This document shows positions 3,240 to 30,239 of a DNA stretch of 64,000 nt, one piece after another (positions within the stretch are counted from its first letter, which is position 1; each line of letters begins with the position of its first letter). The translations under genes and the position numbers were made by a program. The notes beneath the pieces were generated by a model that ran no database searches, was not told the DNA's origin, and saw only the letters and a list, made by a program, of their open reading frames with translations. The stretch comes from Terriglobia bacterium (lineage in GTDB: Bacteria; Acidobacteriota; Terriglobia; Terriglobales; Acidobacteriaceae): assembly GCA_020073495.1 (NCBI GenBank), contig JAIQFD010000004.1, positions 547,001-611,000 on the forward strand, given 5' to 3'.

Positions 3240-3269
3240 CGCTCTTCGGATTCGCTCTTTATCAACCTG

Positions 3270-3427
3270 GGTTCGCGCGTCCGCGGCGCACGTCGCGGAC
3301 TGGGAAGCGGGTGAAAATCCCGCGCTGCCGCGCAACTGTAAGGCGAGAGTAGATGGCGCCGGTCACTGCCCCACGGGTGGGAAGGCCGCACGCAACAGAT
3401 CGCCAAGCCAGGAGACCGGCGTGAACC
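3270..3427 (+). ncRNA. Cobalamin (B12) riboswitch
   Basis: The conserved core is plain: GGGAAGCGGGTGAAAATCCC near 3301, CTGCCGCGCAACTGTAA near 3325, a CACTGCCCC segment, GGGAAGGC, and the B12 box GCCAAGCCAGGAGACC at 3402-3417. P1 can form between GGTTCGC (3270-3276) and GTGAACC (3421-3427). Downstream, CCTTT (3440-3444) can pair with AAAGG (3452-3456) of the receptor's ribosome-binding site. This suggests translational shut-off when adenosyl- or other cobalamin is bound. The gene controlled is the TonB receptor that follows. Confidence 0.95.
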
Positions 3428-3466
3428 TCACACAACACCCCTTTCGCGTGCAAAGGAGGAGTGCCC

Positions 3467-27602: not shown

Positions 27603-27640
27603 GGAATCCGTGTATTATACGGGGCCGCAGAGGAGGTGAG

Positions 27641-28168
27641 ATGGCTCGCGTCGGCTACATCGAACCGCAGAATGCGTCCCCGGACGTCAGGAAGATCTAC
27701 GACGAGAAGCTCAAGGGGAAACCAGGCAACATCCAGAAGGCGCTGGCGCATCAGCCCAAGCTGCTCGATGCCTTCCTCAATTTCTACGGCAGCGTGGGAC
27801 GCTCGCTCGAACGCCGGCTGTTCGAGATGGTGTACATCCGCGTCTCGATCATCAATGGCTGCCAGTATTGACTCCAGCACCATCTCGCTTCGTCGAAGCG
27901 AGCCGGGCTGACCCCAGAAGACTGGCAGCTGCTCAAGAAAGGCGACTACTCGAAGTTTTCCGCCGAGCAACAGGCGGCGCTGCGTTATGCGGAAAAGATG
28001 ACCAAGGGTCCCACCAACAGCGCGTCGGCCGAAGCCGATGCGCTCAAGAAAGTTTTCTCGGACGTGGAGATCGTGGATCTGGTTGCCGAGGTCGCGCTCG
28101 CCAACCTCACCAATCGCATCACCGACGGACTTGGGCTGGAATTCGAGACGGCTCCGGAAAAGATCTAA
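27641..28168 (+). CDS. Carboxymuconolactone decarboxylase/AhpD-family selenoprotein (TGA read as Sec77)
   Basis: Reading through the TGA at 27869-27871 gives one 175-residue protein that ends at TAA 28166-28168. The ATG at 27641 has a near-perfect AGGAGGTGA ahead of it. The TGA stands exactly where AhpD/CMD proteins carry the second catalytic Cys: IINGC-QY-[Sec]-LQHH, with the proton-relay Glu in LFEMVYIRVS and the His pair following. Downstream sequence stays in family (AGLTPEDW, FSAEQQAALRYAEKM, VEIVDLVAEVALANLTNRITDGLG). A CxxU redox site suggests peroxide or thiol-disulfide reduction. A SECIS-like hairpin follows the TGA and selB converges on the gene 94 nt away. The alternative is a nonsense mutation or a sequencing error turning TGC/TGT into TGA. 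Confidence 0.85.
27872..27910 (+). promoter_or_regulatory. Bacterial SECIS-like element
   Basis: CTCGCTTC (27884-27891), loop GTC, GAAGCGAG (27895-27902): an uninterrupted 8-bp stem. Counting the U of the TGA as 1, the loop G and U fall at 24 and 25, next to the G23/U24 SelB contacts of the E. coli fdhF element. CAGC (27875-27878) and GCTG (27907-27910) can add an outer stem. It lacks an obvious bulged U in the upper stem, so the match is by placement and loop rather than full sequence. Confidence 0.65.
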
Positions 28169-28193: not shown

Positions 28194-28223
28194 GATTGCA
28201 GAAGTGCTCACACTTCTGCGATC
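28194..28223. terminator. Bidirectional terminator between the selenoprotein gene and selB
   Basis: GATTGCAGAAGTG (28194-28206), CTCA loop, CACTTCTGCGATC (28211-28223): 13 pairs including one G-T, followed by TTACTTCTTC. It lies between two convergent genes. Confidence 0.65.
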
Positions 28224-28262: not shown

Positions 28263-30239
28263 CTAGAGGATGATCCTCTCGTCTCCTACTCTCCGCGTCA
28301 CCCGCTCGCGGTCCAGCCACTCCAGCAGCGGCACGGCGTACTTGCGCGTCAGGCCGATCATCTCTTTGAATTGCCCGACATCGATCTTCGGCGACTTAGC
28401 CTTGTACTGCGCCACGTCGCGCTTCAACTGCTCCAGCGCCGTGTGATGGAAGACCAGGTCTTCCGAGATCTTTACCAGCACCTTGTCGCGCAACAGCAGG
28501 GTGACGATCTTCTGCGCGCGCGCCTTGTCCACCTTGACCCCTGCGAGCACATCCTTCAGCAGCGGTACCTTCAGCCCGGCCGACGCGAAGGCCTGCTCGA
28601 TGATCTGCTTGGCCTCGGCCTCTTCGTCCTTCATGACCACGGACCGGCCCGCCAAGCGTAGTTGTTCGCCCGCTACCTCGATCTCCTTTTCGTGCACGAG
28701 AGCATCCAGAACGCCCTCGAAGAGTTCGGGGCCGATGTCGAGCCTCTCCCGCAACTCCTGCTTGCTCAGGCCGGCGACGAGCGGATTCGCTTCGTGGAAT
28801 GCCTTCATGAGGCGGACGATGATCTTGGCTACCGAATCGAACGCGGTTTCTGCGACGAACAAGCCTCCCAACCGGATGACGCGAAGCGCTTCGAGCCCCG
28901 TGGCAACTCCTTCTCTCGCCTTGGAGGCGGCATCGCGGCGGGAATGTTCAGGGGTAACCAGGCGGCTGGCGACAATTTCTTCGATTTGGCCGCGGGTCCA
29001 GCCGGTTTCCGCGATCGCATCACCCATCGGAAGCCCCCGCGTGTCCCGCCTCGCGATCCGCATGATCAGTTGCTCCTCAGGGCTGCGTGTCAGCGCTTGT
29101 ATGCGCCCGACAATGGAATGGGCATCCCGCTTCTTCTCTTCCTTCGATGGGGGAAGTGGCGCCGGGTCCACGACGACTCCTCCGCCGATTGTTACCACCG
29201 GGGAGAACTGCCGTAGGATGAAGCGATCGCCGGGAAGCAGCAGCAGCGGCTCGTCGGTCCGCAGTTGCGCGAAGCTCTCCTTGCCAGGCGCAATCTGCTT
29301 TTCTCCGTACAAGACAACCTCGGCGATGGTTTCGGCCGTGTACGAGTGGAAATGTACGCGCGCGCGGTCTTTGAGCGCCTTAGCCGACGGCAGGATCGAA
29401 AGCGACACGTCCACACGCTTCGTGGTGCGAAAGACGCCCGGCGCAGCCAGCATCATCCCTCGCGCCAGCTCCTCCGTCGAAACTCCGGCCAGGTTCAGCG
29501 CGGTCCTCTGACCGGCGATGGCTTTTTCTTCGCTATGTCCGTGCACCTGCACTCCGCGCACCCGCACCCGCCGCGACGCGGGAAAGACCTCAACGTCTTC
29601 TTCTTTCTTGACCGACCCCGATATCAGGGTGCCCGTCACCACCGTGCCAAAGCCCTTCATCGTGAATACGCGGTCGATGGGAAGGCGAAAGAGTGCGGTC
29701 GAGTCCTTGGCCGGCACCTCGGCGGCGATCTTCGCCAACTCGTGTTTCAGCTCATCCAGCCCCGCGCCCGTGATCGAACTGACCGGCACGATGGGCGCAC
29801 CGTCGAGGAACGATCCGCGCAGAAACTCCTCCACCTCCAGTCGCACCACGTCCAGGGTGTCGCTCGGTACGAGGTCGGACTTGGTCAGGACCGTCAGGCC
29901 GCGCCGCACCTGGAGCAGGCGGCAGATGTCGAAGTGTTCGCGTGTCTGCGGCTTGATGCCCTCATCGGCGGAGATGACCAGCATCACCACGTCGATCCCG
30001 CCTACCCCGGCCAGCATGTTGCGCACGAAGCGCTCGTGCCCGGGCACATCCACGAAGCCGATCTTCAGCGTGACGCCGCCCGGCGCCGGCAGTTCCAGGT
30101 GCGCGAAGCCGATATCGATGGTGATGCCTCGCCGCTTTTCCTCCTCGAGGCGGTCGGCGTCGATGCCGGTCAGCGCTTTGACCAGCGCGGTTTTCCCGTG
30201 ATCGATGTGCCCCGCGGTGCCGACGATGACGGATTTCAT
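28263..30239 (-). CDS. selB: Selenocysteine-specific elongation factor SelB
   Basis: 658 aa from ATG 30239; the frame is open to 30347 but only the ATG gives the standard [16 protein letters not shown] start. GTPase motifs: [39 protein letters not shown] and TKSDLV. Domains II and III include [14 protein letters not shown]. The last 250 residues form the winged-helix repeats that bind the SECIS RNA ([55 protein letters not shown]). It delivers Sec-tRNA to UGA codons with a SECIS. selA, selD and selC are not in the window. Confidence 0.96.

Follow-up and report, generated by a model that had tools for sequence, protein, structure and literature searches.

In a soil or groundwater acidobacterium, a small AhpD-like gene almost certainly encodes a selenoprotein in which an in-frame UGA codon is read as selenocysteine (Sec), as judged from comparison of sequences across the host's family. 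Within the window, by which is meant the whole 64,000-nucleotide stretch that was analysed, the gene forms a single frame of 175 residues that opens with ATG at 27641, contains TGA in frame at 27869-27871 and closes with TAA at 28166-28168, such that the active-site stretch reads C74-Q-Y-U77-L-Q-H-H81, with Sec as residue 77. ORF calling under table 11 cuts this frame at the TGA, giving a piece of 76 amino acids (27641-27871) and leaving the downstream half unlisted in its own frame; the claim of an earlier note on this DNA that one TGA splits the gene holds, as do its reading of the product as an AhpD/CMD-family selenoprotein and its description of a near-perfect ribosome-binding site. The features of the locus are the following.

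27631-27639, + strand: Shine-Dalgarno sequence AGGAGGTGA, by direct reading
27641-28168, + strand: AhpD-like/CMD selenoprotein coding sequence (predicted), 175 amino acids read through TGA, stop TAA; PF02627 and AlphaFold2
27869-27871, + strand: putative Sec codon TGA, residue 77, second position of CxxC (C-Q-Y-U); from the orthologue column
27875-27910, + strand: bacterial SECIS-like element, upper stem 27884-27891 / 27895-27902 (8 bp), loop GTC at 27892-27894, lower stem around it
28198-28219, - strand: terminator-like hairpin between the convergent genes, by pattern match only
28263-30239, - strand: selB, Sec-specific elongation factor, 658 amino acids, convergent neighbour; TIGR00475, winged-helix PF09106 and PF09107

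A promoter scan of the AhpD-like gene region found none. Elsewhere in the window a cobalamin riboswitch lies at 3258-3438 (97.2 bits).

The protein belongs to the CMD family, matching PF02627 at 62.2 bits (gathering score 23, E 4.6e-17). Its best relation within NCBIfam is TIGR01926, 'peroxidase-related enzyme', where its score of 75.7 bits lies just below the cut-off of 81.8 and all 27 members match at E <= 1e-3 (best 1.9e-23), for which reason it is regarded as a near relative of that family and is not filed as a member. The model of AhpD proper (TIGR00777) gives 20.1 bits against a cut-off of 191.95, while NF053654, NF041238 and NF041047 give 49.9, 45.9 and 21.9 bits against cut-offs of 310, 175 and 110; in other words, no named protein or selenoprotein model of NCBIfam is passed by the window protein.

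An AlphaFold2 model of the read-through product, with Cys in place of Sec, has a mean pLDDT of 94.2, and its top PDB matches are all AhpD-like (3c1l, 2ijc/2o4d, 2gmy and 2prr), with target-normalised TM scores of up to 0.87. The all-helical predicted fold and the relay motif Glu-x11-C-x-Y-C-x3-H place the protein among AhpD-like proteins of the PA0269 type. Indeed, all five proton-relay residues are present (Glu62, Cys74, Tyr76, Sec77 and His81), the counterparts of which are Glu36, Cys48, Tyr50, Cys51 and His55 in PA0269 and Glu118, Cys130, His132, Cys133 and His137 in Mycobacterium tuberculosis AhpD (PMC3141380). Since the spacing of the relay is identical to that of both proteins, Sec77 falls at the position of Cys133. 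The latter we take to be the peroxide-attacking thiol of AhpD. PA0269, the AhpD-like protein of Pseudomonas aeruginosa (2O4D, 2IJC, 7XW1), shares the fold and the five residues at the same spacing, but has Cys for Sec, is about 31% identical and, at 145 amino acids, is without the N-terminal part.

Functionally, the product is predicted to be a small thiol/selenol redox enzyme with the AhpD-like CMD fold. In the proposed mechanism, Sec would be inserted at the UGA by the ribosome, guided by the SECIS hairpin together with SelB as the carrier of Sec-tRNA-Sec, and the Sec77 selenolate would, as the most likely chemistry, reduce a peroxide or a similar electrophile; Cys74 would next resolve the oxidised Sec77 by forming a selenenyl-sulfide, to be reduced in turn by a thiol reductant. 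Peroxidase chemistry at Sec77 is, on this basis, probable. It is possible, if rather doubtful, that the selenoprotein has another role, either as a thiol-disulfide adaptor or in a dehalogenase-like reaction as in the Bmp8 fold, given that reactions vary among CMD-fold members, that the fold matches include the debrominase Bmp8 (6ohi) and that PA0269 shows no more than weak peroxidase activity (PMC3141380). Bmp8 is, however, more distant (20% identity) than the AhpD-like structures, and the complete set of AhpD-type relay residues at AhpD-like spacing argues for the peroxidase assignment.

Orthologues, defined at E <= 1e-34, were found in 59 of the 300 genomes compared from the host's family and, in a phylum-wide sample, in only 3 of 396 genomes, all three of which are of the host's own family. 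The codon for residue 77 across the 59 orthologues is TGA in 16, TGC in 39 and TGT in 4, and nothing else. The claim that TGA stands in place of the second Cys of CxxC is thereby borne out, as is the expectation that homologues would have Cys or Sec in that column; and because the whole set is confined to TGA or TGC/TGT there, the in-frame TGA is not a matter of chance. Glu62, Cys74, Tyr76, His80 and His81 are invariant. The relatives carry names such as Terriglobales, Candidatus Sulfotelmatobacter, Candidatus Angelobacter and 'Acidobacteria gp1', which point to an acidobacterium as the host. On contigs of named genomes, an alignment query found relatives where a single-protein query found none, and 17 further Cys loci were taken from these genomes. 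The only extra in-frame stop in the whole orthologue set is a TAA in place of the conserved Tyr at codon 20, which the G015 orthologue (L093, G015:C153:3841-4359) has besides its Sec TGA, reflecting either a damaged gene or an error in the MAG.

Purifying selection downstream of the TGA is much like that upstream. The window gene (G000) and its counterpart in G004 (MAG JAHFUA010000003.1) are 70% identical and form a supported pair on the tree (100/99), with dN 0.197 and dS 0.910 upstream of the TGA against dN 0.212 and dS 1.156 downstream; the close pair G494/G555 has dN 0.008 and dS 0.149 upstream, and dN 0.009 and dS 0.342 downstream. The ratio dN/dS is low on both sides, and the relaxed evolution after the TGA that the earlier note had named as a point to check is not seen in these pairs. 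Such selection is contrary to a pseudogene or a true stop.

The earlier note did not describe the SECIS-like hairpin, yet this element tracks the TGA perfectly. Its upper stem starts 12 nt past the TGA and is a perfect 8-bp stem, CTCGCTTC-GTC-GAAGCGAG; with the lower stem included, the element has a folding energy of -20.7 kcal/mol (z -3.56). It has the properties looked for in a bacterial SECIS, namely a hairpin that follows the UGA at a short distance and whose apical loop contains a G (PMC1088965). Counting the hairpin as kept where at least 7 of the 8 stem pairs are retained along with the loop G, it is found in 16/16 Sec orthologues, in 0/43 Cys orthologues and in 0/17 of the further Cys loci (0/60 Cys forms in total), being missing even from Cys forms with the identical peptide LASSKR. 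Moreover, in G494 and G555 (L074 and L079) both halves of one stem pair have changed, C-G becoming U-A, despite the Arg to Gln replacement that this entails. When the same peptide is recoded with synonymous codons, 0.8% of the recoded sequences form such a hairpin. Taken alone, the hairpin is weak evidence, because one of similar sort follows 42 of the 1447 TGA triplets (2.9%) of this GC-rich window; it is the match between codon and hairpin across the compared sequences, rather than the hairpin alone, that carries the weight. In a test by independent pairs of Sec against hairpin, the 2 to 5 pairs available are too few for significance, since there are only five Sec/Cys changes on the tree.

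It is in the light of this conservation that the readings of the TGA as something other than a Sec codon are rejected. Table 11 does read TGA as a stop, so that the gene would be a recent pseudogene or would encode a 76-residue fragment. This is extremely improbable: 16 genomes of the family share this TGA in the identical Cys column, purifying selection persists past it, it lies where the second active-site helix begins in a confidently predicted fold, and the SECIS is kept only with it. A sequencing or assembly error that turned TGC or TGT into TGA has practically no credibility, since no finding favours it, independent assemblies of other studies, for example JAHFUA010000003.1 and MNGW01000030.1, carry the same TGA and the SECIS matches it.

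The presence of tRNA-Sec, selA and selD in the genome, which had been put forward as a check, is confirmed. The genome (3.70 Mb in 8 contigs, 100% complete) carries tRNA-Sec with anticodon TCA, selA (566 bits), selD (376 bits) and selB, along with three further apparent selenoproteins. These are SelD itself (L010, G000:C4:415672-416595; in-frame TGA in AAGUASKLS), a formate-dehydrogenase-type molybdopterin enzyme (L191, G000:C4:89276-90049; in-frame TGA in NQARVUHGPT) and a second AhpD-like protein (L106, G000:C2:392710-393225; CEYULASH, with a hairpin past the TGA), TGA-bearing paralogues like the last of these being common across the order and class. Since tRNA-Sec, selA, selD and other TGA-bearing genes occur together in the genome, this organism very likely employs Sec decoding.

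Across the 16 genomes with the Sec form, selA is found in 16/16, and selB and tRNA-Sec in 14/16 each. The two without tRNA-Sec are 74% and 78% complete. In the assemblies of G030 and G548 (96% and 97% complete, with the Sec form, selA and tRNA-Sec) selB is absent, probably because of missing sequence or contigs. Most genomes with the Cys form keep selA and selB; the complete genome G464, of the Cys form, has no selA, selB or tRNA-Sec. In many Cys genomes (G007, G487, G643, G554 and others) the SelA model covers only ~137-454 of the ~500-amino-acid frame, as if the N-terminal domain of SelA had diverged in them.

The earlier note was right that selB is the convergent neighbour (28263-30239), the gene scoring 372.8 bits against TIGR00475 (cut-off 242.25), but this adjacency alone is no evidence for Sec. 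A convergent selB within 1 kb is found in 41/59 genomes, with Sec and Cys forms alike, and within 150 nt in 17/17 of the further Cys loci. Among full loci, however, trmFO lies within 5 kb in 47/50, as compared with 39/50 for selB and 31/50 for purL. Because trmFO is kept more often than selB, the adjacency reflects a conserved chromosomal block and is no proof of a functional pair, and a special functional link to selB was rejected. It is unlikely that this CMD clade is tied to selenium use in function as well as in position, as a peroxidase beside selB in which repeated exchange of Sec and Cys within the one acidobacterial family answers selenium supply while the Cys forms stay partnered to the machinery for Sec.

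On a tree from which the Sec and SECIS columns were left out, the distribution of Sec and Cys takes 5 changes (2 if well-supported branches alone are counted), as against a mean of 14.3 when shuffled. A stretch of 13 nt around the loop, GCTTCGTCGAAGC, is nearly invariant in all Sec forms, the early branches included, which makes repeated loss of an ancestral Sec the simpler reading of what would be the direction of change.

Selenoproteins of this kind are already known, and the earlier note's statement that AhpD-like ones were reported in marine metagenome surveys is correct: the 2005 Sargasso Sea survey reported 27 AhpD-like and 4 CMD-domain CxxU selenoprotein sequences (PMC1088965), the 2008 GOS survey reported AhpD-like 1 and AhpD-like 2 selenoproteins (PMC2398784), and AhpD-like CxxU selenoproteins are included in reviews of 2022 and 2026 (PMC9312934, PMC13188914). 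With AhpD-like 1 (COG2128, TIGR01926; PMC1088965, PMC2398784, PMC13188914) the window clade shares the CMD fold, CxxU with Sec at the second Cys, common Cys homologues and a SECIS with G in a small apical loop; it differs in lying just below the TIGR01926 cut-off, in carrying CxYU-xQHH and in being found, at this similarity, in one acidobacterial family only. With the CMD-like / AhpD-like 2 proteins (PF02627, CxxU) it has the Pfam domain and the motif in common. The other AhpD-like selenoprotein in this genome shares CxxU and a hairpin past the TGA, but is a 31% identical paralogue of another clade and locus. No paper on the present clade was found in the literature searched. In short, the window protein represents a separate acidobacterial clade within the already known AhpD-like CxxU selenoproteins.

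What the finding adds to the AhpD-like selenoproteins is an acidobacterial clade for which no dedicated family model exists and the members of which would be truncated by gene calling that is blind to TGA as a Sec codon. Its main value lies in the close natural pairs of Sec and Cys forms, with selA in nearly all of the genomes. As codon and SECIS hairpin change together within these close pairs, they would provide a compact test set for the exchange of Sec for Cys and for SECIS finders.
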